Notes under the pieces: model-generated
Told to the model about the DNA's origin: nothing
The model's input: only the letters and a program-made list of their open reading frames with translations
The model's database searches: none
Position numbers and translations under genes: made by a program
Source of the DNA: Gammaproteobacteria bacterium
GTDB taxonomy: Bacteria > Pseudomonadota > Gammaproteobacteria > Burkholderiales > Thiobacillaceae
Assembly: GCA_018820765.1 (NCBI GenBank)
Contig: JAHJNN010000018.1
Location: forward strand, 124,001 to 188,000
DNA length: 64,000 bases
Direction of reading: 5' to 3'
Part shown: piece by piece, positions 9,745 to 44,896 of the stretch
Layout of the letters: every line of letters begins with the position of its first letter
Position numbering within the stretch: position 1 is the first letter of the stretch

Positions 9745-12700
9745 CGCTGTGCCACCTGAAGCAGGCGCCGCATGGCGCTGCCGACGCCGGTGGCTCGCTG
9801 CACCAGCGCGTCGCTGACCTGGGAAATCGCCTGCTCCGCCAGAAACAGCGTCATCAGCGCCTCGGCCGTCGCGGCATCGGCCGGATACGACGGGTGCCCG
9901 GTCATGGCCTTGCGGTAGCTGCGGAAGAACGCCCTGCGCGCCACCCGTTCCCAATCGTCCACGTGGCGCTGCAGCGCCGAATTCACCTCCGCCGAATCGC
10001 CGGCCACATGGCCCATCGCGGCGGCCCCGGCCTGGCTCAGGGAGAGCAGCATGCAGGCCACGTCCTGCAGCGGCGTGTGCTTGCGGCGGCGCTCGGCCCA
10101 ACTGCGGCCCGGTTCCCCGCCATAGTTGGCGATCAGGAAATCGTTGTTCACCAGCCAGACCTGGCCGAGGTGGTAGTTTCCGTGGCAACGCGTCTTCATC
10201 GCCCCGGGCCGCACGCCGGACGCCCGCACGATGCGTCGATACAGCCGGGGCCGCGCCGCGAGAAGCTTGCCGGCGCTGTGCCAGTCCGCCTCAGGCAGCG
10301 CCGGCAGCGCGAGTTCCAGACGCTCGAACATCAGCTCCATTTCATGGCGCACCTTCTTCACCCAGTCGACGAGATCCGCCGGGCTGACCGGCTCGCTGCC
10401 GAAGGTGCCTGCTTCGTCGGGGCGCGCCAGCGCCCGGTGGAACTCCGCGGTGCGCTGGCCCAGGGTCTTCATCAGACTCGCATAGGCACTGTGCCAGCCC
10501 TCACCCGGCGGCTCATGGCGGGTGCGGCATTCGTCGAGAACGCGTTCCAGGAAGTCCAGCGTGGTGTGCCAGGCGTCGCCCTGGTTGGGCGCATAGCGCT
10601 CCAGGATCGCCAGGGTCGAATGCCGCCCCTGTGTGTCCGCATACTCCGCGACGCCGGCGAGTTGCGGGATATGCGGGAACGTCGCCGTCTCGGTCAGGAA
10701 GCGCGACATTTCCAGTTCGGGATGCGTCCCCTCCATCAGCCAGCGATAGCTTTTCAATACCAGCTGATCGTCGAGGTTCGCCCGCAAGCGGCCGTGCTCG
10801 GAGATGGAACGGGTGATGGTCGCCGCCCCGGCCGGGCCGGCAAATCCCGGGTAGGCGGCGGTCACGCTGAACGCCAGGCTGCCCTCGCCGAAGGCGAGCG
10901 TCTCGCCCTGCGCCATGGCCGCCACCACGTCGCAACAGAAGCGGTCGTCCCAGAAGGCGTCGAACAGCACCCCCACCCGCGCAAGCCGGCGCACCTTGGC
11001 CAGCGTGGCGTGCAGCAGCGTGCCGACGCGGCCCTCGTCGTCGTCTTCCCAGGCCAGCGCCAGCGGGATGGCGTAGTGCTGGACCCCGCCGCCGCTCAGG
11101 GTGACCGCGACGGTGGCCAGCAGCCAGTTGCCCGCTTCCGTCGTCCACTCGCGCATCACGCCGAATTCGAATTTTTCCACTTCGGCCCCGCGATGCACGA
11201 ACCAGGGCTGGGCCCGGAAGTAGCGCGGGATGATCTGGCGCTCAAGCTGGTCACGCGTGCGGCGCACCATCAGCCGGTTCACGCCCGTGTCCTCTTCCGC
11301 CCGTGCGAAGAGGGTGCGCCAGCCGCTGTCCACCAGCACCAGCACCGGCAAATCCGGCGGCATCGGACGTTCCTCGTGCCAGGCCGGCGCCTCCACATCC
11401 GCCGCCAGCCGGAAGGCGAAGCAGCCATAGCCGCCGAGGGTGAGCAGATAGGGCAATTCGCCGATGGGCGGAAAGCGGCTGCGCCCCATCAGCTCCACCG
11501 GCACCCGTTCCTTGAAGGTGGACAGGTCCAGTTCCACCGCCTGCGGCGCGCGCGACACATTGGCCACGCAGAGAATGGTCTCGCCCTCGTACTCGCGCAG
11601 ATAGGCGAGGATCTTGCGGTTGCCGGGACGCAGGAAGCGCAGCGTACCGCGGCCGAAGGCGCGGTGCTCCTTGCGCATGGCGATCAGGCGCCGGGTCCAG
11701 TTGAGCAGCGAGGACGGGTTGCGCTGTTGCGCCTCCACGTTCACCGCGCCGAAGCCGTAGACGGGGTCGGTGATCGGCGGCAGATACAGGCTGCCCGGGT
11801 CCGCCTCGGAAAATCCGCCGTTGGGTCCCCCGTTCCATTGCATCGGCGTGCGCACGCCGTTGCGGTCGCCGAGCAGAACGTTGTCGCCCATGCCGATCTC
11901 GTCGCCGTAATAGAGGATCGGCGACCCCGGCATGGTCATCAGCAGCAGATACATCAGTTCGATACGCTGGCGGTCGTTGTCGAGCAGCGGCGCAAGGCGG
12001 CGGCGAATGCCCAGATTGAGCCGCGCCTGCGGATCACTGGCATAAGCCTGGTAGAGATAGTCGCGCTCGCGGTCGGTCACCATTTCCAGCGTCAACTCGT
12101 CGTGATTGCGCAGGAAGATCGCCCACTGGCAGGTGTCCGGAATGTCCGGCGTCTGTTCCATGATCTCCACGATCGGGTGGCGATCTTCCTGCGCGATCGC
12201 CATGTACATGCGCGGCATCAGTGGGAAGTGATAGGCCATGTGGCACTCGTCGCCCTCGCCGAAATACGCATACACGTCCTCCGGCCACTGGTTCGCTTCC
12301 GCCAGGAACACGCGGTTCTGGTAATGCCGGTCGAGCTCGGCACGCATCTGCTTGATGACCGCATGCGTCTCCGGCAGGTTTTCGTTGAGGGTGCCTTCGC
12401 GCTCGCACAGATACGGCACCGCATCCAGCCGCATGCCGTCCACCCCGGCGTCGAACCAGAAGCGCATCGCGTGCATCACGGCCTTGGAGACGTGCGGATT
12501 GGCGTAGTTGAGGTCGGGCTGGTGAGAAAAAAAACGGTGCCAGTAAAAGGCCTGCGCGACCTCGTCCCAGGCCCAGTTGGACTTTTCCGTATCGGAAAAG
12601 ATGACGCGCGTCCCGCTGAATTTGGTGTCGGTGTCGCTCCACACGTAGTAGTCGCGCTTGACCGATCCCGGCGGTGCGTGCCGCGCGGCCTGAAACCAGG

Positions 12701-32404: not shown

Positions 32405-33391
32405 ATGAGCCGGGATGCGCTTTGCCTGTTCGCCCTCGACGCCAGCCGCCCCTATGGCGAGCGGGTGGCCGCCGCGCTGGGGATCGCGCTGTCCCGCCAC
32501 GAGGCGCGCGACTTCGAGGATGGCGAGCACAAGGCGCGCTCGCTGGAAAACGTGCGCGGCCGCGACGTCTACGTGATCCACTCGCTGTACGGCGAGCCCG
32601 GCATGAGCGCCAACGACAAGCTGATCCGCCTGCTGTTCTTCATCGGCGCACTGAAGGACGCCTCGGCCGCGCAGGTCACTGCCGTCTGTCCCTATCTCGC
32701 CTACTCGCGCAAGGACCGTCGCACCAAGCCGCGCGATCCGCTCGGCAGCCGCTACGTCGCCCAGCTGTTCGAGGCGGTGGGGACCGACCGGATGGTGACG
32801 CTCGACGTGCACAACCTCGCCGCCTACCAGAACGCCTTCCGCATCCCGGCCGAGCATCTCGAGGCCCGCGGCCTGTTCGTCGCCTGGTTCGCGGCTCGGC
32901 TGCAGGACGACGCCGTCGTGGTGGTGTCGCCCGACGCGGGCGGGGTGAAGCGGGCGGATGCCTTTCGCGACGCCCTCGCCCGTGCACTCGACCGCCCGGT
33001 CGGCTCCGCCTTCATGGAAAAGCGCCGCAGCGAAGGCGTGGTGTCCGGCGAGGCGGTGGTCGGCGATATCGACGGCAGAACCGCGATCATCCTCGACGAC
33101 CTCGTCAGCAGCGGCACCACCCTGGCGCGCGCGGCGGCGGCGTGCAAGGCGCGCGGCGCCAGCCGGGTGTTTGCCGCCGCCAGCCACGGCGTGTTTGCCG
33201 GTGCAGCGGCCGAGGTGCTGGCCGACCCGGTGCTGGAAAAGCTGCTGGTCGCCGATTCCATTCCACCCTTCCGGCTGCCGCCGGCGATGCTGGGCCGCCG
33301 GGTCGAGGTGCTGGATTCGGCGCCCCTGTTCGCCGAGGCCATCCGTCGCCTGCACAGCGGCGGTTCGCTGGTGGAACTGATGGGGGGATGA
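32405..33391 (+). CDS. prs: Ribose-phosphate pyrophosphokinase (PRPP synthetase)
   Basis: A 328-residue PRPP synthetase, making PRPP from ribose-5-phosphate and ATP. Motifs are [70 protein letters not shown] and the PRPP loop in [16 protein letters not shown]. It diverges from the housekeeping class I enzyme in the FEDGEH and HNLAAY segments and so is likely a second, specialised copy. It is divergent from pncA-pncB, whose product consumes PRPP. AAGGAG precedes the ATG. An imperfect-free hairpin follows the stop. Confidence 0.92.
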
Positions 33392-33410
33392 TGATCGTCA
33401 CGGTGCGAAA

Positions 33411-33460
33411 ATCGCGCCTTGGAAGGCGCTCCTACGTGGGAGCGCCTTCCAAGGCGCGAT
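33411..33460. repeat. Perfect 22-bp inverted repeat downstream of prs (REP-like, possible terminator)
   Basis: The left arm 33411-33432 (ATCGCGCCTTGGAAGGCGCT + CC) is exactly complementary to the right arm 33439-33460, with a 6-base loop TACGTG. It begins 20 bp after the prs stop. No T-run follows, so it is better seen as a REP-like element that may also stop transcription or protect the mRNA 3' end. Its CTCCTAC/GTGGGAG centre resembles the REP units at 61372-61549. Confidence 0.75.
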
Positions 33461-33517
33461 TGCTCGGGCGGCGATCGCGGCCCGACTGTTGACTGGAGAG
33501 AAGTATCTGCAAGGGGA

Positions 33518-34558
33518 TCAGCTACCAGCCAGATCGGCATGCCGCTGCGCCAGGTCCAGATACTCCATGGCCGCTGCGACCCACTTCCCGGGCGGATGCC
33601 TGCCGTCATCGCGCAGATGCCACAGGGCGAGCTTGGCGCGTAGCACCGCGCGGCAGCTCTGATAGAAATGAATCAACGCGTCGGGCGGGGCATCGCCGCT
33701 CGCCTCGCGATACGCTTCCAGCATCCAGCCCCCCACCTGCGGCGCGTGCAGCCGCTCGCATTCCAGCGCCAGGTAGCCCAGCTCGTCGGCTGGATCGAGG
33801 ATGCGGAATTCGCGCCTGAATTCCAGGCAATCGATGACGACCGGTTCCGCCAGCAGGCACACGTGCTCTGGCCGCAGGTCGCCGTGGCCTTCGACGATGC
33901 GGCCCTGCCGCACGCGGGAATCGAAGCATTCCGCATGGTCTTGCAGGAAGCGCAGCTGGAGATGCGCGATATGCTCCAGCCCGGCCTGGGGCAGGTCGAA
34001 TTCCGGGCTGCGTAATTCCTGCAGGTTGTCCTCGATGCGCGCGGCAAGATCGTGCCGATAGGCATCGGGCGCGATGGTTTCCGCAGCCGTTGCCGCATAG
34101 AAGCGGGCGAGACGATGGGCGAGTTGAATGATTTCTACCTGTTCGACGGTCCCGCTGCGCAGCAGATGGTCGAGCATGCGATCCGCCGGCAGCCGCAGCA
34201 TCTGCACCAGCCAGTCCACCGTCTCCCCTTTTCCGCTCAGGCTCAGGCGCCCTTCCGCATCGCGCACCAGCGGTACCACCCCGAGGTAGACCTCGGCGGC
34301 CAGCCGCCGGTTGAGCCTGACTTCCTCCTCGCAATCCCGGCGCCGCGCTTCGACCGTGCTGAAGTCGAGGTAGGGATAGCACACCGGCTTCTTCAGCTTG
34401 TAGGCATGGGTGTCGGTGAGGAAGACCCAGGACATGTGGGTCTCAACCGCGTCCACCCGCGCGGTCGCCTCCGGGTAGGCCTGCGGCCGTCCAAGGAAGC
34501 CGAGCTTGGCAGCCAGTTCCGGCTGGTGTGAAACATGTGGGGAGCGGTTTCTGTCCAT
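33518..34558 (-). CDS. Aminoglycoside phosphotransferase-fold protein (no kinase tail)
   Basis: A 346-residue protein with the APH/ChoK-like phosphotransferase fold. THMSWVFLTDTHAYKLKKPV is the N-lobe Lys region, IVEGHGDLRPEHVCLL the catalytic loop with the HGDLxxxH motif, and VIDCLEFRREFRILDPADEL the metal-binding region. It is homologous to the N-terminal half of the protein at 41876, but lacks that protein's C-terminal P-loop domain. Substrate unknown; family members are often annotated as bifunctional APH/ATP-binding proteins. The ATG at 34558 or adjacent GTG starts it, with a weak GAGGG nearby. Confidence 0.8.
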   Translation of the reverse strand: MDRNRSPHVSHQPELAAKLGFLGRPQAYPEATARVDAVETHMSWVFLTDTHAYKLKKPVCYPYLDFSTVEARRRDCEEEVRLNRRLAAEVYLGVVPLVRDAEGRLSLSGKGETVDWLVQMLRLPADRMLDHLLRSGTVEQVEIIQLAHRLARFYAATAAETIAPDAYRHDLAARIEDNLQELRSPEFDLPQAGLEHIAHLQLRFLQDHAECFDSRVRQGRIVEGHGDLRPEHVCLLAEPVVIDCLEFRREFRILDPADELGYLALECERLHAPQVGGWMLEAYREASGDAPPDALIHFYQSCRAVLRAKLALWHLRDDGRHPPGKWVAAAMEYLDLAQRHADLAGS

Positions 34559-34708
34559 CACCCTCAGCTTGATGTCCCGTCGATTTCCGTCACGCGATAC
34601 GTCAGGTGCATGGTGCGAGACGCGAAAACCATCTGCTATACCTTGATATAGACGGTGAAACCGGAACGTCACGCTTCGCCCGTTCGGCGCATACACCCAG
34701 GAACAGCC

Positions 34709-35209
34709 ATGACCCGAAATTCCATCGATGTTGCCAGCCGCGTCAGCCCACGCCTGTCGGCACTGCTCAGGGGCCGGGTCGACAATCCCGAGGCCGAACA
34801 GCCCGTCACGCTGATGGCGGTGCGCCGCTTTCTCGCCGATCTGTTGCCGGCCGATTTCAAGGAGGCCGAGCGACTGCATCATTTCGACATCAGCGAATCG
34901 CTGCTCGACGAACTGGACGCCCTCATCGAGGAGTTCGGCGCCGCAGCGCTTGCAATCGATTTCATTCAGGCCTACGCCAGCGAACCGCTCTCGCGCGCGA
35001 TCGAAGCGGTGATCAACGACGAGAACCGCGAAAACTCTGCGAGCCTCGCCACGGTCAGGGACGCCCTGATTGCCGGCCTGGGCGCGCGACTGGTGGGTGA
35101 CGGCGTCATGGAAGACGACGAGGACGACACGCTGCTGTCGGAGATCGAGGCGATGATCGAACTGTTCGGCCCCGACACCCTCGCCGAAGATTTCCTGCGC
35201 TACGAATAG
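34709..35209 (+). CDS. Acidic protein of unknown function
   Basis: A 166-residue acidic, Leu/Ala/Glu-rich, probably all-helical protein. Two stretches look like internal repeats: LLDELDALIEEFGAAALAID near residue 70 and TLLSEIEAMIELFGPDTLAE near the end. No signal peptide or membrane segment. The ATG at 34709 follows CAGGAA. A 53-residue membrane protein starts 2 bp after its stop and PfpI follows that, so the three form an operon. No family recognised. Confidence 0.7.
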   Translation: MTRNSIDVASRVSPRLSALLRGRVDNPEAEQPVTLMAVRRFLADLLPADFKEAERLHHFDISESLLDELDALIEEFGAAALAIDFIQAYASEPLSRAIEAVINDENRENSASLATVRDALIAGLGARLVGDGVMEDDEDDTLLSEIEAMIELFGPDTLAEDFLRYE

Positions 35210-35211
35210 GC

Positions 35212-35373
35212 ATGTTGAGAAAGCAGCAAACAAGGCGTGTTCTGGCGATTGTCCTGGTGGTGCTGGGCGGCGTGCTGATGGCGCTGGCGCCAGAAATATG
35301 GGCCGGGCTGGCGGTGCTGGCGCTGGGTGTGGTAATCGAGTTGCTCGGGATTGCACTGGAACGCAAGACCTAG
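35212..35373 (+). CDS. Small two-helix membrane protein
   Basis: A 53-residue frame, MLRKQQTRRVLAIVLVVLGG at the start, with a hydrophobic hairpin (residues ~11-28 and ~30-48) and a basic N-terminus and C-terminal ERKT. It begins 2 bp after the stop of the preceding gene and ends 10 bp before the PfpI start, so it is tightly packed between two coding genes on one strand. Such tiny Ala/Leu/Val-rich membrane proteins are common in stress clusters. Function unknown. Confidence 0.65.
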   Translation: MLRKQQTRRVLAIVLVVLGGVLMALAPEIWAGLAVLALGVVIELLGIALERKT

Positions 35374-35383
35374 AGGAGTTGTC

Positions 35384-35896
35384 ATGAGAGCACTTGTCGT
35401 CAGCGCCGACCATTTCGAGGATTCCGAACTGCTGTACCCGTTCTACCGGCTGCAAGAGGAAGGACTGGAAGTCGACGTCGCCTCGATCTCGACGGGGGAA
35501 ATCAACGGCAAGCACGGCTACGAGGTGGCCGTGAACAAGGCGCTGCGCGACGTCGATCCGAACGACTACGACTTGCTCGTTCTCCCAGGCGGCAAGGCGC
35601 CGGCGGCGCTGCGCAAGGACGCGGCCGCGATCGCGATCGCGCAGGCTTTCATGCGCAGCGGCAAGCCGGTTGCCGCCATCTGCCATGGACCGCAAATCCT
35701 GATCACGGCGGGTGTCCTGCAGGGGCGGCACGCCACCTGCTACGGCTCGGTTGCCGAGGAGCTGAGCGCAGCAGGCGCCATCTATGAAGACAGCGAGGTG
35801 GTGGTGGATGGCAAGCTGGTCACCTCGCGGCAGCCCGCCGACCTGCCCGCCTTCATGCGTGAAACCGTCAGGCTGCTGGGAAAGAGCGCACGCTAG
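35384..35896 (+). CDS. PfpI/DJ-1 family protein
   Basis: A 170-residue DJ-1/PfpI superfamily protein. The nucleophile elbow is AAICHGPQILITAG, with the reactive Cys followed by His; Glu near the N-terminus (HFEDSELLYPFYRLQEEG) completes the usual site. Family members act as proteases, glyoxalases or deglycases; here a stress-protective glyoxalase/deglycase role fits E. coli YhbO/YajL relatives. GAGGAG precedes the ATG at 35384. Last clear member of the operon begun at 34709. Confidence 0.92.
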   Translation: MRALVVSADHFEDSELLYPFYRLQEEGLEVDVASISTGEINGKHGYEVAVNKALRDVDPNDYDLLVLPGGKAPAALRKDAAAIAIAQAFMRSGKPVAAICHGPQILITAGVLQGRHATCYGSVAEELSAAGAIYEDSEVVVDGKLVTSRQPADLPAFMRETVRLLGKSAR

Positions 35897-35978
35897 ACAC
35901 CAAGTGGATGCCGCGTCTGCGCACCGGTCGAGGTTCACGCGGCTTCATCATTTTCGTTGTCACCAGAAGGAGCACGAC

Positions 35979-36473
35979 ATGAAAGCACGATTCGCCGGTT
36001 TCCAGCCCGTCAGGCGCGACCGCATGGTCCAGGAAACGCGTCACGACGCCTACATGGCCAAACACAAGCTGGCCGAGCCCACGGTGTGCCCGCAATGCGG
36101 CGCGGTGTTCCACGATGGGCGCTGGCAATGGCTGGTGAGGCCGGCCCAGGCGCACGAGGAAATGTGTCCGGCCTGCCACCGCATCCATGACGATTTCCCG
36201 GCTGGCTACGTGAGCGTAGGCGGCGCGTTCTTCAAGGATCACCGCGAGGAGCTGCTGCATCTGGTGAAGAACGAGGAAGCCCAGGCCAAGGCGGAGCATC
36301 CCTTGAAACGCATCATGAAAATCGCGGACCAGGACGACGGCGTCCAGATCACCACCACCGACATCCACCTCGCCCGCGGCATCGGCGAAGCGCTGCACCA
36401 TGCCTATCAGGGCGAACTGGAGTATCACTACAACGAAAAGGAAAACCTGCTGCGCGTGGTGTGGGAACGCTAG
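35979..36473 (+). CDS. Cys-rich stress-cluster protein (BCAM0308-like)
   Basis: A 164-residue protein with a zinc-ribbon-like pair of CxxC motifs, TVCPQCGAVF and EEMCPACHRI, in the first half, and a C-terminal part (VQITTTDIHLARGIGEALHH) that may be a small RNA- or nucleotide-binding fold. I recall the same family as BCAM0308 in the Burkholderia low-oxygen locus. AAGGAG precedes the ATG. Its stop codon TAG (36471-36473) coincides with the first bases of the MITE-like element, so the element may have trimmed or replaced the original 3' end. Confidence 0.75.
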   Translation: MKARFAGFQPVRRDRMVQETRHDAYMAKHKLAEPTVCPQCGAVFHDGRWQWLVRPAQAHEEMCPACHRIHDDFPAGYVSVGGAFFKDHREELLHLVKNEEAQAKAEHPLKRIMKIADQDDGVQITTTDIHLARGIGEALHHAYQGELEYHYNEKENLLRVVWER

Positions 36474-36662
36474 TGTCCTGAGTTAGAAATACGTTGATCG
36501 GACATTTGCATAGGCCAACGAAACAGGTTGATGGAAATGACGAAATCTTTCGTAGGCAAGGCGCAAACCGCAGCCAGGTTGAACACCTGGCGAGGATGTG
36601 CAACACAGTATGCGGAAGATTCTCGTCATTTCCATTCAGCGAATTTCTAACTCAGGACGCTA
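36471..36662. mobile_element. MITE-like element, copy 1 (left flank of peptide-ligase cassette)
   Basis: The left end TAGTGTCCTGAGTTAGAAAT (36471-36490) and right end (ATTTCTAACTCAGGACGCTA, 36643-36662) are inverted copies of each other with one mismatch. CTAG occurs at each outer junction, a possible target duplication. There is no coding capacity. A relative with matching ends lies at 40846-41009. A transposase of matching ends would have to be elsewhere. Confidence 0.75.
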
Positions 36663-36722
36663 GGCCGGCGCCGGCCCCGCGGATCGACGCGGCACCCGAC
36701 ACGTCCAGGCGAGGACCGTTTC

Positions 36723-37454
36723 ATGCATCCCATCACGCTGCGCCTGCCGCTCAGGATGCTGCCGCAACCGGACGAGACGACCTGCGGCCCGACCTGCCTG
36801 CATGCCGTTTACACCTACTGGGGCGGGAACGTATCGCTTGCGGAGGTGATCGAGCGCACCCACAGAATGGAACACGGCGGCACGTTCGCGATCTTCCTGG
36901 CCTGCGACGCGCTGCGCCACGGCTACCAGGCTACCATCTACACCTACAACCTGACGGTGTTCGACCCCACCTGGTTTGCGCCAGGGGTGGACATTGCCGG
37001 GCGCCTGCAACAGCAGCGGGAGGCGAAAACGCACGACGCCCGATTGCAGCACGTCACCGAGGGCTATCTGGAGTTCCTGCGGCTGGGCGGCCGGCTGCGC
37101 CTGACCGATCTTTCGCGCCCCCTGATTCGCAGCCTGCTGCGCCGCAAATTGCCCATCATCACCGGCCTGAATTCCACCTACCTGTATCGTGCGGTGCGGG
37201 AATACGGACCCAACGACGAGCCCGACGACATCCGCGGCCTGCCGTCCGGCCACTTCGTCGTGATCGGGGGCTACGACCGGAAAAAACACAGCCTGCTGGT
37301 GGCCGACCCCTACGATCTGCATCCCTACGGGCCCGCGCACGAATACTGGATCAACGTCGATCGCGTGCTCGGCGCGATCCTGCTCGGCATCGTCACGCAC
37401 GACGCCAACCTGCTGCTCGTCTATCCGCCGGGGACGGCCCCGGAGACGCCGTGA
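36723..37454 (+). CDS. C39-like cysteine peptidase
   Basis: A 243-residue protein with papain-like C39 features. QPDETTCGPTCLHAVYTYWG holds the oxyanion Gln15 and the candidate nucleophile Cys21; SGHFVVIGGYDRK holds the His, and LLVADPYDLHPYG the Asp. C39 peptidases cleave leader peptides at double-Gly sites in bacteriocin export, but here there is no ABC transporter domain, so it may process or hydrolyse a soluble peptide. GAGGA sits 7 bp before the ATG. Its stop overlaps the ligase start as GTGA, beginning a four-gene unit. No signal peptide is seen. Confidence 0.85.
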   Translation: MHPITLRLPLRMLPQPDETTCGPTCLHAVYTYWGGNVSLAEVIERTHRMEHGGTFAIFLACDALRHGYQATIYTYNLTVFDPTWFAPGVDIAGRLQQQREAKTHDARLQHVTEGYLEFLRLGGRLRLTDLSRPLIRSLLRRKLPIITGLNSTYLYRAVREYGPNDEPDDIRGLPSGHFVVIGGYDRKKHSLLVADPYDLHPYGPAHEYWINVDRVLGAILLGIVTHDANLLLVYPPGTAPETP

Positions 37455-38923
37455 GCATCCTCATCGTCGTCGACAACCCGCACGACTGGCCGCTCGACCT
37501 TGCCGGCGTCGACGTCGTTTCGGCCCGCGCCTACCTGACCGACCCGGCCTATGGCGAATGGCGCTCGGTCAAGGCATTCAACCTGTGCCGATCCTACCGC
37601 TACCAGAGCCTGGGCTACTACGTCTCCCTCCTGGCCGAGGCGCGCGGCCACAAGCCGCTCCCCAAGGTGAGCACCATGGAGGACCTGCAGTCGCAGAATC
37701 TGGTGCGGCTGCTCACCGAGGACCTGGACGACCTGGTGCAAAAGTCGCTCGCGCCCATCAAGTCGGATGCATTCGAACTCAGCATCTACTTCGGGCGCAA
37801 CGTGGCGAGCCGCCACGACCCCTTGAGCCATCGGCTGTTCAACCGCCTTCAGGCCCCGCTGCTGCGGGCCCATTTCGAGCGCCACCGGGACCAGTGGCAG
37901 CTGCGCAGCGTGCGCGCCATCGCCGCCAGCGACATCCCGCCGGCGCACCACGACTTCGTCGTGGAAGCCGCCACCGCGTATTTCACAGGCCAGCGCCGGC
38001 ACACGCGCAAGCGCCCTGCGCCGCGTTTCGACCTCGGCATCCTGCGCGACCCCGGCAACCCGGAGCCGCCCTCCAATGCCCGGGCCCTGCAGCGCTTCGA
38101 GAAGGCCGCCGCCGAGGTGGGACTGGCGGCCGAATTCATCACCCGCGCCGACCTCGGGCGGCTGCCCGAGTTCGACGCCCTGTTCATCCGCGACACCACC
38201 TATGCCAACCACTACACCTACCGCTTCTCGCGGCGGGCCACCGCGGAAGGCCTGGTGGTGATCGACGATCCGGATTCCATCCTCAAGTGCAACAACAAGG
38301 TCTATCTGGCCGAACTGCTCACCCGCCACAACCTGCCTGCGCCGCGCACGCTGATGGTCCACCCCGGCAACATCGACCGGATCATTCCCCACCTCGGGTT
38401 GCCGTGCGTGCTCAAGCAGCCGGACAGTTCGGGTTCGCTCGGGGTGGACAAGGTGGAATCGGAACCGGACCTGCTTGCCAGGGTGGGCGCCTTGCTGCAA
38501 AAGTCGGAGCTGATCGTCGCGCAGGAATGGCTGCCCACCGAATTCGACTGGCGCGTCGGCATCCTCGACCGGCGGCCGCTGTTCGCGTGCAAATACTTCA
38601 TGGCCGCCGGCCACTGGCAGATCGTCAAGCGCGAACCCGGCCGTCGCGGCTACGAAGAAGGCCCGGTCAAGGCCGTGGCGGTGGCGGAAGTGCCGGAAGA
38701 GGTGGTGAAGATCGCGCTCAAGGCGGCCAACCTCATCGGCGATGGCCTCTATGGCGTGGACATCAAGCAGGTCGGCGGCCGCTGCTATGTCATCGAGGTC
38801 AACGACAACCCCAACGTCGACGCCGGCAACGAGGACGGCGTGCTGAAGGACGCGCTCTACCGCGAGATCATGGGGTCGTTCGTGCGCCGCATCGAGGCGC
38901 GCAAGCTGGGCACTCCCCGATGA
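37451..38923 (+). CDS. RLAN-domain RimK-type ATP-grasp ligase
   Basis: A 490-residue amino acid/peptide ligase. Residues 1-~190 are the RLAN domain (SILIVVDNPHDWPLDLAGVD, WRSVKAFNLCRSYRYQSLGY) found in front of RimK-like ATP-grasps. The ATP-grasp domain follows with SILKCNNKVYLAELLTRHNL, GLPCVLKQPDSSGSLGVDKV, EWLPTEFDWRVGIL and GVDIKQVGGRCYVIEVNDNP, including Glu and Asn metal ligands. RimK enzymes add Glu or similar amino acids through ATP-activated carboxyls. The GTG at 37451 overlaps the peptidase stop, and its own stop overlaps the next start as ATGA, so synthesis is coupled. Substrate unknown. Confidence 0.92.
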   Translation: MSILIVVDNPHDWPLDLAGVDVVSARAYLTDPAYGEWRSVKAFNLCRSYRYQSLGYYVSLLAEARGHKPLPKVSTMEDLQSQNLVRLLTEDLDDLVQKSLAPIKSDAFELSIYFGRNVASRHDPLSHRLFNRLQAPLLRAHFERHRDQWQLRSVRAIAASDIPPAHHDFVVEAATAYFTGQRRHTRKRPAPRFDLGILRDPGNPEPPSNARALQRFEKAAAEVGLAAEFITRADLGRLPEFDALFIRDTTYANHYTYRFSRRATAEGLVVIDDPDSILKCNNKVYLAELLTRHNLPAPRTLMVHPGNIDRIIPHLGLPCVLKQPDSSGSLGVDKVESEPDLLARVGALLQKSELIVAQEWLPTEFDWRVGILDRRPLFACKYFMAAGHWQIVKREPGRRGYEEGPVKAVAVAEVPEEVVKIALKAANLIGDGLYGVDIKQVGGRCYVIEVNDNPNVDAGNEDGVLKDALYREIMGSFVRRIEARKLGTPR

Positions 38924-40152
38924 ACCCCGCTCCCGCGCTGCATGCATTTGCGGGCTACGGCATCGAACTCGAATACATGATCGTGGACCGCCGCACGCTT
39001 GCGGTCATGCCGCTGGCCGACACCCTGCTGCAGGCCGCAGCGCGCAGCGCGCCGGCGGACAGCCGTGCACGATTCGGCTGGTCCAACGAGATCGTGCTGC
39101 ACCTGCTCGAGATCAAGAACGCCCGCCCCGAACCTGCACTCGAACCCATGGCCGCGGGATTCCAGGCCGAGGTCAATGCCGTCAACCGGCTGCTCCAGCC
39201 TCTCGGCGCGCAACTCATGCCCGGCGCCATGCACCCTTGGATGAACCCCGCCGCCGAGACGCATCTGTGGCCCCACGCGGACGCGCCCGTCTACCAGGCC
39301 TACGACCGCATCTTCGGCTGCAGGAAACACGGCCAGGCCAACCTGCAGAGCATGCACCTCAACCTGCCCTTCGCCGACGACGGCGAATTCGCCCGGCTGC
39401 ACGCCGCCGTGCGGATCGTGCTGCCCATCCTGCCGGCACTCGCCGCGAGTTCGCCCATCGCCGACGGCAAGCCCAGCGGCTTTCTCGACACCCGCTTGGA
39501 AGCCTACCGCACGGCCGGCGAGCGCGTCCCGTCGGTGGCCGGCCGGGTGATCCCGGATACGGTCGGCAGCCGTGCCGAATACCAGGACCAGGTCCTGGCG
39601 CCGATGTACCGGGACATCGCCCCGCTCGACCCGCACGGCGTACTGCGGCACGAATGGCTCAACGCCCGCGGCGCGATTCCGCGCTTTGACCGCAACGCCA
39701 TCGAAGTGCGGGTCATCGACGTGCAGGAATGCCCGCAGGCCGACCTCGCCATCGCCGCCGCCGCGACGGCCGCCATCCGGGCGCTCTACGATGCGGCCTG
39801 GTCGCCGCTGGCCGCGCAGCAGGCCTTCGGCACGGATGCCCTGGTGGCGATCCTGCTCGCCTGCATCCGCGATGCCGAGCAGGCGGTGATCGACGATGCC
39901 GGCTACCTGCGGCTGCTGGGTCTGGCCGAGCGGCCCTGGCGGGCCGGCGAACTCTGGCAGCATCTCATCGCAACGGCGTCGCCGGCGCATTCCGCATGCT
40001 GGCGCGAACCGCTGCGGGTGATCCTGGAACAGGGGCCGCTCGCCCGCCGCATCCTGCGCGCGCTGGGGGCGGACTGCTCGCATGCGCACCTGCAGTCGGT
40101 CTACCAGACACTGTGCGACTGCCTCGCAGCGGGGCGGATGTTCGGCGACTGA
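38920..40152 (+). CDS. GCS2-like carboxylate-amine ligase
   Basis: A 410-residue member of the glutamate-cysteine ligase 2 superfamily. GYGIELEYMIVDRRTLAVMP gives the N-terminal Glu-x-Glu metal site; HLLEIKNARPEPALEPMAAG, ANLQSMHLNLPFADD and RNAIEVRVIDVQECPQADLA are family landmarks. Such ligases form amide bonds between a carboxylate and an amine with ATP. It starts as ATGA overlap with the RimK-like gene, so the two ligases act together, each perhaps adding one residue. The next gene starts 4 bp after its stop. Confidence 0.9.
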   Translation: MNPAPALHAFAGYGIELEYMIVDRRTLAVMPLADTLLQAAARSAPADSRARFGWSNEIVLHLLEIKNARPEPALEPMAAGFQAEVNAVNRLLQPLGAQLMPGAMHPWMNPAAETHLWPHADAPVYQAYDRIFGCRKHGQANLQSMHLNLPFADDGEFARLHAAVRIVLPILPALAASSPIADGKPSGFLDTRLEAYRTAGERVPSVAGRVIPDTVGSRAEYQDQVLAPMYRDIAPLDPHGVLRHEWLNARGAIPRFDRNAIEVRVIDVQECPQADLAIAAAATAAIRALYDAAWSPLAAQQAFGTDALVAILLACIRDAEQAVIDDAGYLRLLGLAERPWRAGELWQHLIATASPAHSACWREPLRVILEQGPLARRILRALGADCSHAHLQSVYQTLCDCLAAGRMFGD

Positions 40153-40155
40153 TGC

Positions 40156-40857
40156 ATGGCCGACCACCTCCTGATCACCTGCGAGCACGGCGGCAACCGC
40201 ATCCCGGCCCGCTACCGCCCCCTGTTTGCGGGCTTCGAAGCCTTGCTGCAATCCCATCGCGGCTTCGATCCCGGTGCGCGCATCCTGGCCCGCGAACTGT
40301 CGCGGGCGCTGGCCGCGCCCTTGTTCGTCTCCACCACCAGTCGCCTGCTGATCGACCTCAACCGCTCCGTCGGCCATCCTACCCTCTACTCCGAGGCCAC
40401 CCGGAATGAACCCGCCGCGGTCCGGCGCGACATCCTGAAGCGCTACTACCTGCGCTACCGCAACCGGGTCGAGGCGCACATCGCCGCAGCGGTGGCGGAC
40501 GGCAGCCGGGTGGTCCACCTCTCCTCGCACAGCTTCACGCCGGAACTCGACGGCACCCTCCGCAAGGCCGACATCGGCCTGCTCTACGATCCGGCGCGAC
40601 CCGGCGAGACCGAACTGTGCCGCCGCTGGCAGGCCCGACTCAAGGTAGCGGCGCCCGGATGGACGGTGCGCCGCAACTATCCCTACCGCGGCAGGTCGGA
40701 CGGCTTCACCGCCTACCTGCGCCGCCGCTTTTCGGCTGACGCGTATCTCGGCATCGAACTCGAAATCAATCACCGGCATGTCCTGGCCGGCGGTCCGCAC
40801 TGGCGCAGCTTGCGCCGCGACGTCATCGCAAGCCTGCGTCATGCCCTAGTGTCGTGA
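40156..40857 (+). CDS. N-formylglutamate amidohydrolase-like protein
   Basis: A 233-residue protein of the N-formylglutamate amidohydrolase (HutG/FGase) family. LLITCEHGGNRIPARYRPLF, VHLSSHSFTPELDGTLRKAD, YPYRGRSDGFTAYLRRRF and YLGIELEINHRHV carry the zinc-binding Glu/His and substrate residues. Family members cleave amide bonds of glutamate derivatives; histidine-degradation genes are absent here, so the natural substrate is likely a product of the two ligases. The last codons (L-V-S, stop, 40846-40857) are inside the MITE-like element, which therefore supplies the end of this gene. Confidence 0.9.
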   Translation: MADHLLITCEHGGNRIPARYRPLFAGFEALLQSHRGFDPGARILARELSRALAAPLFVSTTSRLLIDLNRSVGHPTLYSEATRNEPAAVRRDILKRYYLRYRNRVEAHIAAAVADGSRVVHLSSHSFTPELDGTLRKADIGLLYDPARPGETELCRRWQARLKVAAPGWTVRRNYPYRGRSDGFTAYLRRRFSADAYLGIELEINHRHVLAGGPHWRSLRRDVIASLRHALVS

Positions 40858-41009
40858 ATCAGAAATATCGAGACATAAAACAGCGTCTTTTTCCGCATGG
40901 CGGCGTTGCTCGTCGTTGCCATAGACCGAACTATGTCGCCTCCTCGCGCCTTGCCCTGCGAAAAAATCCATCCGTTTTATTTGTCCCGCTATTTCTAATT
41001 CACAACACT
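40846..41009. mobile_element. MITE-like element, copy 2 (right flank of peptide-ligase cassette)
   Basis: The left end CTAGTGTCGTGAATCAGAAA (from 40846) and right end (TATTTCTAATTCACAACACT, to 41009) are inverted copies with two or three mismatches, and both match the ends of the copy at 36471-36662 (TAGTGTCnTGAnTnAGAAAT). The interior has no gene; it shows a GC-rich centre between AT-rich arms. The two copies bracket the four-gene cassette. Confidence 0.75.
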
Positions 41010-41045
41010 GCTGTCCTGACGCCGCGCCGGGATTTCGGCTTACGT

Positions 41046-41074
41046 TTGAAACAGGAGCTTGCTATCCTGATAAT
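41046..41074 (+). promoter_or_regulatory. Sigma-70 promoter of the DksA/TraR-like gene
   Basis: TTGAAA (41046-41051) and GATAAT (41069-41074) are separated by exactly 17 bp, a near-consensus pair, 40 bp upstream of the start at 41114. It lies just outside the right end of the MITE-like element. Confidence 0.65.
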
Positions 41075-41113
41075 GCGTCAAGGGATTCCATCCAACCATT
41101 CGCAGGAGATTCG

Positions 41114-41512
41114 ATGGCTACGCTCACCCAATCGCAGCTCGATCAGCTGACCCGGAAACTGAAGGGGAACTACCAGGCCTTGTTGCGCGAAGTGCGCGAA
41201 GAACTGGACAACTCGGGCAACCAGCATCGCATCGACCTGCTCAACAACGAACCGGGCGATACCGGGGACGAATCGCTGGCCAATGCCCTGGCGGACTTCA
41301 ACCTGACCATCCTGGACCGCCATATCGACGGCATGCGCGACATCGAAGCTGCGTTGCAGCGCGTCAGGAACGGCGAGTACGGCGTGTGCATCGACTGCGG
41401 CGACGACGTCGGCTTCGGCCGCCTGGAGGCCTACCCCACCGCCAAGCGCTGCATCGTGTGCCAGGAGCAGCGCGAAAAACAGTATGCCCAGGGGGGCCAC
41501 CCGAAAATGTAA
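41114..41512 (+). CDS. DksA/TraR-family zinc-finger protein
   Basis: A 132-residue protein with a coiled-coil half (QLDQLTRKLKGNYQALLREV) and a C-terminal zinc finger, CIDCGDDVGFGRLEAYPTAK followed by RCIVCQEQ, the C-x2-C-x17-C-x2-C of DksA/TraR. Such proteins reach into the RNA polymerase secondary channel and, with ppGpp, lower rRNA transcription under starvation. It is shorter than E. coli DksA (151), and the DxxDxA coiled-coil tip is not clearly preserved (DTGDESLANALAD), so it is likely a paralogue. AGGAG precedes the ATG. A hibernation factor follows 46 bp downstream, giving a ribosome-silencing unit. Confidence 0.88.
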   Translation: MATLTQSQLDQLTRKLKGNYQALLREVREELDNSGNQHRIDLLNNEPGDTGDESLANALADFNLTILDRHIDGMRDIEAALQRVRNGEYGVCIDCGDDVGFGRLEAYPTAKRCIVCQEQREKQYAQGGHPKM

Positions 41513-41558
41513 GCGGAAGCAGGATTGCCCTGCTTCCATCCCAACCACCGGAGTCACC

Positions 41559-41864
41559 ATGAAAACCCCGCTTCAAATCACCTTCCGCGACATTCCCCAT
41601 TCCGACGCCCTCGACGCGCACATCCGCGACAAGGCGCAGAAGCTCGATCAAGTCTTCGGCGACATTATCAGTTGCCGGGTGGTGGTCGAGCAGCCCGCCA
41701 AGCATCAGCAGCAGGGCAAACCGTTCAACATCCACATCGACCTCGGCGTGCCCGGTTCGGAAATCGTGGTGGACAGGCAGGCCAACGAGGATGTCTACGT
41801 CGCGCTGCGCGACGCCTTCGATGCGGCCAAGCGGCAGCTGGAAGACTACGCGCGCCAGCTGTAA
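41559..41864 (+). CDS. hpf: Short ribosome hibernation promoting factor
   Basis: A 101-residue HPF/RaiA domain (MKTPLQITFRDIPHSDALDA, SCRVVVEQPAKHQQQG, EDVYVALRDAFDAAKRQLED), almost identical in its motifs to the longer HPF-cold-shock fusion at 26304. It lacks any C-terminal extension, as in short HPF/YhbH. It should bind 30S subunits and help make inactive 100S ribosomes or protect 70S. GGAG lies upstream. Followed 11 bp later by the phosphotransferase/ATPase gene. Confidence 0.93.
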   Translation: MKTPLQITFRDIPHSDALDAHIRDKAQKLDQVFGDIISCRVVVEQPAKHQQQGKPFNIHIDLGVPGSEIVVDRQANEDVYVALRDAFDAAKRQLEDYARQL

Positions 41865-41875
41865 GGGCACATTCC

Positions 41876-43468
41876 ATGGCCGGCCAGGCAGGCATGGACG
41901 CGATGCCGGACGCGACGGGCGATATGCCCGGGCTGATCCGCAGCCTGCATGACCCGGCCTGCTACGATCACGCGGCCGGCCCGGTCCGCGTGATCGAAAC
42001 CCATATCTCCTGGGTTCTGCTCACCGGCGAATTCGCCTACAAGATCAAGAAGCCGCTCGACCTCGGCTTCCTCGATTTCAGCAGCATCGACAAGCGCCTG
42101 CACGCCTGCTGCGATGAAGTGCAACTCAACCGGCGGCTCGCGCCGGCCATCTATCTCGACGTCGTCCCCATCACCGGCACCCCGGATGCCCCACGCGTCA
42201 ACGGGGTCGGCGAGACCTTCGAGTATGCCGTGAAGATGCGTCAGTTCCCGCCGGACGCCACGCTCGACCGGCTCGACGCAGCGGGCGGCATGACCGCACG
42301 CCACGTCGAAGCCATCGCCGCCACCCTCGCCCGCTTCCATCTCGAAGGCTGCGCGCGTGCCGCGGCGGACAGCCCCTGGGGCAGCCCGGAAGCAATCTGG
42401 CGACCGGTGGCGCAGAATTTTGCGCAGATCGCGCCGCGCCTCGACGACCCGGCCGACCGTGCGCAGCTCGACACCCTGCAGCGCTGGAGCGAAGCCGAGC
42501 ACGCCCGGCTCGCCCCGCTGATGGCCGCGCGCAAGCGCAACGGCTTGGTGCGCGAATGCCATGGCGACCTGCATCTGGGCAACCTCGCCTGGGTCGACGG
42601 CCAGCTGCTGGTATTCGACTGCATCGAATTCAATCCCGAACTGCGCTGGATCGACATCCAGTCCGAAGTCGCGTTCTGTTACATGGACCTGCTGCAGCGC
42701 GGCCATGCCGACTGGGCGTGGCTGTTCCTCAACCTCTGGCTCGAAGCCACCGGCGATTACGCAGGCCTCGCGCTGCTGCGCTATTACGCGGTGTACCGCG
42801 CGCTGGTGCGCGCCAAGGTGGCGGCCATACGCACCGGGCAGACCGCCGGCCCCGAACGTGACGCCGTGCTCACCGACGTGCGTACGCTGCTGCAACGGGC
42901 CGCGACGCTGACACGCCCGCAGCCCACGCGCCTCGACATCACCCACGGCCTGTCGGGCTCCGGCAAGACCACCGTCACGCGCACCCTGATGCAGAACCCG
43001 GGCGCCATCCGCCTGCGCTCAGACGTCGAACGCAAGCGGCTGGCCGGACTCGGCGCCCTGGAACGGAGCGGCTCCAGCATCGGGCAGGACTTATATGCGG
43101 CCGATGCCACGCAGCGCACCTACGCTCACCTCGCAAGCCTGGCGGGCGGCCTCCTCGACGCCGGCTGGCCGGTGATCGTCGACGCCACTTTCACCGCGCG
43201 CGGGCAGCGTGACCTGTTTCACGACGTGGCGCAGTCGCACGGCGTGGCATTCCGCATTCTCGATTTCCCGGTTGCCGTCGCCACCTTGCGCGAACGCATC
43301 CTCGAGCGATCGCACGCAGGCACCGACGCCTCGGAAGCCGACCTCGCTGTGCTGCAGCATCAGATCGATACCGAAGAGCCTCTCGCAACCGACGAGCAGG
43401 CCGACGTCGTCGGAGCCGACAAACCGCTGCACGCGCCTGTGCAAGGCCACTTGAACGACGCGCCCTAG
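41876..43468 (+). CDS. Bifunctional aminoglycoside-phosphotransferase-like/ATPase protein
   Basis: A 530-residue two-domain protein. The N-terminal ~345 residues are an APH-fold kinase (VIETHISWVLLTGEFAYKIK, LVRECHGDLHLGNLAWVDGQ with the catalytic HGDLHxxN, and LVFDCIEFNPELRWIDIQSE). The C-terminal ~170 residues are a P-loop kinase-like domain (THGLSGSGKTTVTRTLMQNP with Walker A GLSGSGKTT, then PVIVDATFTARGQRDLFHDV). The same architecture is widespread and unassigned; a role in phosphorylating a small molecule or nucleotide is likely. It shares the promoter region of dksA-like and hpf genes. The shorter homologue is at 33518. Confidence 0.85.
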   Translation: MAGQAGMDAMPDATGDMPGLIRSLHDPACYDHAAGPVRVIETHISWVLLTGEFAYKIKKPLDLGFLDFSSIDKRLHACCDEVQLNRRLAPAIYLDVVPITGTPDAPRVNGVGETFEYAVKMRQFPPDATLDRLDAAGGMTARHVEAIAATLARFHLEGCARAAADSPWGSPEAIWRPVAQNFAQIAPRLDDPADRAQLDTLQRWSEAEHARLAPLMAARKRNGLVRECHGDLHLGNLAWVDGQLLVFDCIEFNPELRWIDIQSEVAFCYMDLLQRGHADWAWLFLNLWLEATGDYAGLALLRYYAVYRALVRAKVAAIRTGQTAGPERDAVLTDVRTLLQRAATLTRPQPTRLDITHGLSGSGKTTVTRTLMQNPGAIRLRSDVERKRLAGLGALERSGSSIGQDLYAADATQRTYAHLASLAGGLLDAGWPVIVDATFTARGQRDLFHDVAQSHGVAFRILDFPVAVATLRERILERSHAGTDASEADLAVLQHQIDTEEPLATDEQADVVGADKPLHAPVQGHLNDAP

Positions 43469-43614
43469 CCTGTTGATTTTCATGGCATCGCGGCGTACTC
43501 GGCATCATGCGACTGCGCATGAAGCAATCTGACGCGGCGCGGCGAATTTCCAATTGTCGTTTTTCGAAGCCGCTCTACCATTCAGACGAAGGGCCACGTT
43601 TTTGCGAGGGCGTC

Positions 43615-43968
43615 ATGTCGAGAGCATCGGAGCTTCTGAAATTGCCGGGCGTGGTGAGTGCCGGGGTCTTTTCCCGAAAAGGCTTCGTGGAAGAGTTCGA
43701 AGGCGCCCTGAGCGAAGCCGAAGTGGCGGAAATGATGGAGCTGTGCGCAGCCCTGACGATGACGATGGAGATGCAGGGTCGCCTGCTGGATCGCATGCCC
43801 GGCCAGTCCGGCTGGAGCGCTCATGGCTGGATGACGTGGGGGCCCGAATGGGCCGTCGTCACGGTCTATGACGGCACCTGCATCGTGCAGGGGCGGCTGG
43901 CCCCTTTCAATCGGCTCATCGAGGCCATGACGGACGCGGCCGGCACCGAACTGATCAAGCCGTTTTGA
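43615..43968 (+). CDS. DUF2173-like protein, copy 1
   Basis: A 117-residue protein, SRASELLKLPGVVSAGVFSR at the N-terminus, which matches two more genes downstream (44218, 44570): all begin with a helix plus LPGV or LDGV and share a central GWxxxGQxGW-like segment and WAVVTVYDGTC. The fold looks like a roadblock/profilin-like alpha/beta domain. DUF2173 proteins are known from sulfur oxidisers but have no assigned role. GAGGG precedes the ATG. The stop codon overlaps the left end of a MITE-like repeat. Confidence 0.75.
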   Translation: MSRASELLKLPGVVSAGVFSRKGFVEEFEGALSEAEVAEMMELCAALTMTMEMQGRLLDRMPGQSGWSAHGWMTWGPEWAVVTVYDGTCIVQGRLAPFNRLIEAMTDAAGTELIKPF

Positions 43969-44217: not shown

Positions 44218-44550
44218 ATGCCCACACTGGATGAACTGATGACGTTGCCCGGGGTATACGGTGCGTTCGAATTTTCCTGCACCGGCGAACTCGGCGACAT
44301 GCGGGGAAATCTGGAGCGCGACTTTGCCGAGCTGGTTGCCCAGATGTGCGCCACCAATATGGCGATCTACCGCATGCAGGCCACGGGGTGGACGAAGCTG
44401 ACGGGCCAGACGGGGTTTCTACCCGAACGCGGCTTTGCCGTCGTGACCCTGGACCACGTGATGATGGGCATGAATGGCAGCGCGATCCTGGCAGACAGCC
44501 GGGAGTTCGATTACGACGCGGCTTACCTGCGCTTCAACGCCGCCGCCTGA
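44218..44550 (+). CDS. DUF2173-like protein, copy 2
   Basis: A 110-residue paralogue of the proteins at 43615 and 44570 (PTLDELMTLPGVYGAFEFSC, then GWTKLTGQTGFLPERGFAVV). It has an AAAGGAG before the ATG, which lies just outside the MITE-like element. A 19-bp gap separates it from copy 3, so these two are co-transcribed. No catalytic residues are evident; the family may bind a partner protein or act as a sensor subunit. Confidence 0.75.
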   Translation: MPTLDELMTLPGVYGAFEFSCTGELGDMRGNLERDFAELVAQMCATNMAIYRMQATGWTKLTGQTGFLPERGFAVVTLDHVMMGMNGSAILADSREFDYDAAYLRFNAAA

Positions 44551-44569
44551 CCTTGGAAGGAGCATCGCC

Positions 44570-44896
44570 ATGCCGCATCTGGAACGCCTGCTGATGCTCG
44601 ATGGCGTCGTGGCCGCACTGCGCGTCTATGACGACGGGACGCTTGCGGAGGCCACCGGCCATCTGGATCAGATCGACACGCAACTGGCGGCCGAGTTGTG
44701 CCACGCGAACGGGCGCTTCATGCTCCACAACAGCGACATGTTCATGACGCTTTCCGGCACGACGGGCTGGCCCGCCCGGGGCTGGATGATGGCGGGCGAC
44801 GAGCTGTCCGTATGCGGCGTCGCGGAAGTCGCATGTTTTGTTCGCAACAGCGAGGTGTCTTTCAACGAGGTGTTTCGCACCTTGACGGAAATTTGA
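44570..44896 (+). CDS. DUF2173-like protein, copy 3
   Basis: A 108-residue paralogue (PHLERLLMLDGVVAALRVYD, then GTTGWPARGWMMAGDELSVC). It follows copy 2 by 19 bp with an AAGGAG site. The GW pair and the final beta strand (SVCGVAEVACFVRNSEVSFN) match the other copies. Three such genes in a row suggest a hetero-oligomer or separate ligand specificities. Confidence 0.75.
   Translation: MPHLERLLMLDGVVAALRVYDDGTLAEATGHLDQIDTQLAAELCHANGRFMLHNSDMFMTLSGTTGWPARGWMMAGDELSVCGVAEVACFVRNSEVSFNEVFRTLTEI

Follow-up and report, generated by a model that had tools for sequence, protein, structure and literature searches.

A recurrent four-gene cassette around an RLAN-RimK ligase, with a proposed role in making a small glutamate-containing amide or peptide

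In a genome of the Thiobacillaceae (assembly GCA_018820765.1; 3.44 Mb), four adjoining genes encode a C39-like cysteine hydrolase (C39), an ATP-grasp ligase with an RLAN domain (RLAN-RimK), a GCS2 family carboxylate-amine ligase (GCS2), and an N-formylglutamate amidohydrolase-like protein (FGase). They lie in a window of 64,000 nucleotides, by which we mean the whole stretch that was analysed (contig C17, bases 124001-188000). We propose that the cassette works in the cytoplasm as one operon, whose enzymes build and recycle a small amide or short peptide that contains glutamate, along a path parallel to that of glutathione. We give this proposal an even chance of being right. Its observed basis is the gene structure, the recurrent gene order, the invariant candidate active sites, the modelled folds, and an alternation with GNAT proteins; the reaction steps are inferred.

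As proposed, GCS2 would make the first amide, by linking an amine to glutamate (or to a similar acid) through the side-chain carboxyl. RLAN-RimK would attach another amino acid to this product at its free carboxyl. C39 may form a thioester acyl enzyme and then cleave or transfer the acyl part, as phytochelatin synthase does. FGase might take an N-acyl group off a glutamate end, or it might degrade the product. An earlier note on this DNA, made from the letters alone, had suggested a dedicated amide or peptide pathway with two ATP-dependent amide ligases, a C39 protein, and an amidohydrolase. The gene order in related loci supports this.

The gene order recurs across distant lineages

All four genes are on the forward strand. 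C39 and RLAN-RimK overlap by 4 bases, as do RLAN-RimK and GCS2, and GCS2 is separated from FGase by 3 bases, which agrees with the 4-bp overlaps or gaps under 5 bp in the earlier note. Each of the four proteins scores above the cut-off for its Pfam family, and none scores above the cut-off of any NCBIfam model.

We scanned a genome collection with the window's ligase. Of 302 relatives, the best 80 were used, which biases the sample toward close ones. (The best matches are from Thiobacillus.) All four genes were present, in order, at 40 of the 80 loci. As labelled, these include Betaproteobacteria, Gammaproteobacteria, and a metagenome-assembled genome (MAG) of Neomarinimicrobiota (L087). The block without FGase is also found in MAGs labelled as Tectomicrobia (L080) and Deltaproteobacteria (L084). 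Another three loci are cut by the end of the contig after GCS2 and one is cut after RLAN-RimK (L068); in L043, FGase lies 5 kb off. At 26 loci, RLAN-RimK is alone, although for four of these the upstream sequence is shorter than 500 bases. (In two records labelled as Klebsiella pneumoniae MAG, L069 and L073, the ligase groups with those of Gammaproteobacteria MAGs, so the labels are probably wrong.)

We searched the entire genomes with solitary ligases for C39 and GCS2 and found a full-length GCS2 in five of the 26, a broken piece of GCS2 in another, and C39 in the same six. In the five with a full-length GCS2, C39, GCS2, and FGase are together elsewhere; there, C39 and GCS2 overlap by 4 bases, as would be expected had the ligase gene been removed from between them. 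A tree of the ligases places the cassette and solitary forms in one clade (support 100), with three changes between the two states. (The tree was built by a quick method from 120 rows; it leaves out L031, L044, L068, and L082 from the 80 loci, and L204 and L205 from the 45 stretches described below.) The earlier note held that finding the genes scattered in relatives would speak against a cassette. They are partly scattered, with 26 of 80 ligases alone and the other three genes elsewhere in five of those 26 genomes, yet half of the loci hold all four.

Invariant candidate active sites

Gln15, Cys21, His177, and Asp195 of C39 are invariant in 35 of 35 sequences and make up the active site expected of a C39 protein; we assume that they have the usual Gln/Cys/His/Asp catalytic roles. 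In a comparison to ComA, the region around the cysteine aligned, while the His/Asp region appeared only as a weak second stretch. Cys21 is so close to the N terminus that there is probably no space for a signal peptide. C39 has 243 amino acids and a single C39 match, and lacks the fusion to an ABC transporter that marks bacteriocin-processing C39 peptidases. It does not match the phytochelatin synthase family of Pfam (PF05023).

Seven residues of GCS2 (E16, E18, N56, E57, H105, N148, and R264) are invariant in 35 of 35 sequences. We also compared the GCS2 profile to the PDB, but the matches were poor, and the top one, a C-type lectin, was spurious. In FGase, E10, H11, H121, H125, E201, and E203 are invariant in 32 of 32 sequences, as expected for a member of PF05013. 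Its family profile matches 2odf (E = 7.4e-34), and the protein matches no NCBIfam model.

In the ligase, the RLAN domain is N-terminal to a RimK-like ATP-grasp domain, with both above cut-off, as in other RLAN-RimK proteins. K283, K322, R368, E449, and N451 are invariant in 47 of 47 sequences and are candidate ATP- or magnesium-binding residues. The solved structures that are most related by sequence are D-Ala-D-Ala ligase and then others that include RimK and LysX/ArgX. The ligase shares the ATP-grasp half and the conserved candidate residues with RimK and LysX/ArgX, but it has the extra RLAN domain, and it falls below the cut-offs of the RimK models (59.1 of 143.4 bits for TIGR00768 and 23.8 of 331 bits for NF007764).

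A structural model of the RLAN domain superposes on RimK/LysX ligases, which head the list of similar folds. This suggests that the RLAN domain may be a shrunken ATP-grasp, which, if right, would give the origin of the domain. By sequence, hhalign did not connect RLAN with the ATP-grasp half when non-overlapping alignments were used; an initial match was spurious, as the two alignments had shared about 6 residues. Against the PDB, the RLAN profile had only weak matches to ribosomal protein S12 (E = 0.1).

GCS2 and FGase alternate with GNAT

Of 398 Pseudomonadota genomes sampled, 72 have PF14401, including this one; it is in none of 14 well-known control genomes. Outside of this genome, we examined 45 of the 74 matches, which were hand-picked to spread over families. 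In 44 of the 45 stretches, tblastn finds a GNAT within 1.5 kb of the RLAN gene (L161 is the exception). Thirty of these 44 also have a C39-like part (in 26 cases as a single fusion open reading frame, or ORF) and the other 14 have the GNAT alone. Four full-length fusions that we scanned match DUF3335 (PF11814) as well as GNAT models, while two short neighbours match GNAT models only. None of the 45 stretches has a cassette-type GCS2 or FGase beside RLAN (we ignored low-scoring GCS2 matches, which were ORFs in the wrong frame). Conversely, the same six GNAT queries had no match at E = 1e-6 at any of the 80 loci, cassette or solitary (their flanks vary), or at E = 0.001 in the window. At E = 1e-10, a GNAT-C39 query against this genome and the 26 genomes with solitary ligases gave just two matches, both to the GNAT part (34% and 35% identity).

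GCS2 plus FGase seems to replace GNAT around a core of C39 and the ligase. The two kinds of system share the ligase family (PF14401 with RimK) and, in 30 of the 45 stretches, a papain-like C39-type part. They differ in that one has a GNAT and lacks GCS2 and FGase. Also, the C39-like domain of the GNAT systems belongs to PF11814, a family to which the cassette's C39 has no match at E = 0.001. According to PMC10318531, GNAT domains, which might act as peptide ligases or acetylate, are often found fused to DUF3335 proteins. The near-strict alternation offers an experimental handle: if the products are related, then the shared core would name the substrate.

A broader idea, which we offer tentatively and would rate as well short of even, is that the RLAN domain is a vestigial ATP-grasp without the ATP-clamping lobe, fused to an active ligase. 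Together with a phytochelatin-synthase-like cysteine enzyme and a capping module, which could be either GNAT (driven by acyl-CoA) or GCS2 plus FGase (driven by ATP, with a deacylase), it may form a widespread second "glutathione-like" pathway that leads to a capped or gamma-glutamyl peptide.

Although RLAN ligases are widespread, no paper that defines their product is among the matches listed in the open-access literature, nor is any paper on this cassette. Comparative work on amidoligases by Iyer and others in 2009 reportedly predicted RLAN neighbourhoods. This analysis adds that the order recurs in distant lineages, that GCS2 plus FGase alternates with GNAT, that split and solitary forms exist, and that mobility is refuted (see below), along with a suggested fold of RLAN.

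Weighing the proposal

Glutathione synthesis together with phytochelatin synthase resembles the cassette in using one enzyme of the glutamate-cysteine ligase family, one ATP-grasp enzyme, and one papain-like cysteine enzyme. We regard this parallel as one of enzyme types and not of membership. The host has matches to gshA (PF08886) and gshB (PF02955) side by side on another contig (C11), away from the cassette, so any glutathione synthesis by the cassette would not be the genome's only route, and the cassette's enzymes are far below the models for glutathione synthesis. A second parallel is the butirosin pathway, where an ATP-grasp ligase (BtrJ), a papain-like enzyme (BtrH), and a deprotecting hydrolase (BtrG) act in sequence. 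BtrH is an acyltransferase with a C39-related domain, as stated in PMC10318531. This likeness is again by enzyme types alone, and the cassette differs in that its block has no carrier-protein gene.

Several findings weigh against our proposal. The strongest is that 20 of the 26 genomes with solitary ligases (some of which are MAGs) have no detectable relative of C39 or GCS2: the ligase has a use apart from the other enzymes, and this is the main objection to a fixed four-step route. Nine of the 80 loci have C39, RLAN-RimK, and GCS2 without FGase in the available flank. GCS2 is far below the cut-offs for named glutamate-cysteine ligases (57.9 of 176.4 bits for TIGR02050 and 45.2 of 249.05 bits for TIGR02048), so glutamate as the substrate is a guess. 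The likeness of C39 to phytochelatin synthase is in the fold only, with 13% identity. And the flanks point to no product: among up to five ORFs of at least 90 amino acids on each side, in the 30 largest clusters (which were not annotated), none of those shared between lineages identifies one. These clusters mostly track species groups. Some clusters of 4 to 5 loci cross groups, at shifting positions; as read by eye, they include universal-stress-like and ABC-ATPase-like ORFs.

We also considered that the acceptor of RLAN-RimK might be a protein, to which it would add amino acids in the way that RimK modifies S6, with C39 and FGase editing or reversing the tag and GCS2 (or elsewhere GNAT) making or modifying the donor. 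RimK and LysX/ArgX act on proteins, and they are prominent both among the solved sequence relatives (after D-Ala-D-Ala ligase) and at the top of the RLAN fold list. A house-keeping protein acceptor would most easily explain the ligases that are kept without detectable C39 or GCS2. Furthermore, in the genus, DksA-like and hibernation-factor-like genes lie downstream, so ribosome-related genes are near the cassette. (The earlier note stated that glutathione genes, histidine genes, and ribosomal-modification targets were absent nearby. For glutathione and histidine this is correct, with no such enzymes in the ten proteins that we scanned from 32405 to 43468, but the DksA-like and hibernation-factor-like genes adjoin.) However, these neighbours belong to the genomic slot: they follow the BCAM0308 family gene, which is left of the cassette in the genus, even where the cassette is absent (L213). 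Beyond Thiobacillus-type loci, such a match comes right after the cassette only in L019. The score for the RimK family model (59.1 against 143.4 bits) also seems inconsistent with this explanation, which we find doubtful. A route for breakdown, in which GCS2 gamma-glutamylates an amine that serves as a nitrogen source and is later released, with the ATP-grasp ligase and C39 acting on the conjugate, has precedents: gamma-glutamylation is an established handle in the use of amines, and FGase has an established role in histidine breakdown. But the flanking ORFs, which were clustered and not annotated, include no recurring set of catabolic enzymes, and we consider this route to be unlikely. (An ABC-ATPase-like ORF, which could be from a transporter, recurs at varying places in four loci, three with the cassette and one with a solitary ligase.) Finally, C39 could be the leader peptidase and the ligase the modifying enzyme for a ribosomally synthesized and post-translationally modified peptide (RiPP). 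C39 peptidases do cut RiPP leaders and ATP-grasp ligases make graspetides, according to PMC8939145. But the four genes abut, so that no precursor could fit between them (the flanking ORFs compared were of at least 90 amino acids), and C39 lacks a transporter fusion, so RiPP maturation is very improbable.

An apparently stable slot with later repeat insertions

The earlier note reported copies of one miniature inverted-repeat transposable element (MITE) at both ends of the block, and suggested that the block may move as a unit. Instead, the two elements have TAGTGTCNTGANTNAGAAAT in common at their ends and are alike only over these ends of about 20 bases, while their interiors and copy numbers differ. 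With up to 2 mismatches, TAGTGTCNTGANTNAGAAAT occurs at 17 sites in this genome; a reversed control had 0. The downstream element has the features of a MITE: it is short, with terminal inverted repeats, several copies (Table 1), and TA or CTAG edges, and ends of its type are present on both sides at six other places in the genome. The upstream element has ends of the same type, but it is not a multi-copy element, as its sole BLAST match in the genome is itself. Both elements overlap gene ends: the stop of the BCAM0308 family gene is at the edge of the upstream element, and the stop codon of FGase is within the downstream one. In relatives, the C-terminal residues of the FGase frame differ from those in the window.

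Six relatives carry the cassette without the repeats, with both junctions read (L009, L010, L012, L013, L014, and L022). In relatives, the gap between BCAM0308 and C39 has no repeat ends, and in L014 (and, less closely, L013) the CTAG junction to the window's right flank is unbroken. At no other fetched locus (2,245,518 bases) does the cassette have a pair of repeat ends. Single sites with three mismatches in L023, L048 (about 100 bases upstream of C39), and L209 look like chance. MITEs of this kind are also found at unrelated sites, both in this genome and in L209, which is from a genome without an RLAN match; the earlier note had named MITE copies at unrelated sites, with the cassette free of them, as evidence against movement. 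(In L209, from G027 of the genus, a perfect pair of repeat ends at 11183-11376 lies between a kinase-like gene and prs.) The flanking repeats were inserted later and apparently do not mobilize the cassette.

Within the genus, 18 of 56 genomes have RLAN (the E-value alone gives 19, one of them a weak match in G035 that we dropped) and 31 of 56 have BCAM0308. We fetched 30 BCAM0308 loci, and C39 and RLAN adjoin in 17. (Because these loci stop within RLAN, they do not reach GCS2 and FGase.) In the eighteenth genome with RLAN (G037), RLAN and BCAM0308 are on different contigs. An empty site, of the kind that the earlier note proposed to look for, does exist: in G032, DksA directly follows BCAM0308. 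G052, which has no RLAN match, has an FGase-like ORF of 130 amino acids about 6 kb after BCAM0308 (L210, 13098-13490), and this remnant suggests loss. The site looks like a stable slot that holds the cassette in some genomes and not in others, rather than a jumping unit. Matching ends at both edges and the patchy distribution of the ligase (18 of 56) would fit a mobile cassette bounded by MITEs, but this is extremely unlikely given that C39 and RLAN are beside BCAM0308 in 17 of the 18 genus genomes with RLAN, that no other locus has the pair of ends, and that uninterrupted junctions occur with the cassette present.

We also rejected carriage by plasmids. RLAN relatives were on 13 of 72,556 plasmid records, all at under 60% identity, and 10 of the 13 records exceed 1 Mb. 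GCS2 was on one plasmid record (37.8% identity), a 9-kb record from Legionella adelaidensis that appears to be chromosomal. This record (L222, NZ_LR134436.1), although labelled as a plasmid, has RimK-GCS2-FGase followed by DUF4332, and also fur, bamE, and dapF.

Neighbouring genes

Features of the locus are listed in Table 1. Left of the cassette are a PfpI-type gene and the BCAM0308 family gene. None of the four cassette proteins matched the defence-system models of PADLOC, and no known RNA family reached its gathering score in 35800-41600.

Table 1. The cassette and adjoining features, in window coordinates.
Feature	Position	Strand	Details
C39-like cysteine hydrolase	36723..37454	+	243 aa; Pfam PF13529 above cut-off
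RLAN-RimK-like ATP-grasp ligase	37451..38923	+	490 aa; GTG start; PF14401 170.1 bits, PF08443 31.7 bits
RLAN domain (model of residues 1-195)	37451..38035	+	possible shrunken ATP-grasp-like fold
GCS2 family carboxylate-amine ligase	38920..40152	+	410 aa; PF04107 95.1 bits
N-formylglutamate amidohydrolase-like (FGase)	40156..40857	+	233 aa; PF05013 87.2 bits; stop inside downstream MITE
Upstream MITE-like element	36470..36663	.	imperfect inverted ends; at CTAG at BCAM0308 stop; single copy by BLAST
Downstream MITE-like element	40846..41009	.	8 related places elsewhere in the genome and one short fragment
BCAM0308 family gene, left neighbour in the genus	36012..36473	+	NF040826 235.3 bits
DksA/TraR-like zinc-finger gene, right neighbour	41114..41512	+	PF01258; likewise in L009, L010, L012, L013, L014, L022
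Hibernation-factor-like gene, right of the cassette	41484-41864		

Further to the right is a kinase-like frame (41525-43468, +) with an AAA_33 domain at its end. As a query, it is 30-41% identical to a gene on the opposite strand, to the left of the cassette, in several relatives. Related genes may thus flank the slot (in the window, 33518-35938 on the minus strand and 41525-43468 on the plus strand). Beyond it, three successive small ORFs (43507-43968, 44218-44550, and 44474-44896) have similar starts and, by eye, look like tandem paralogues.

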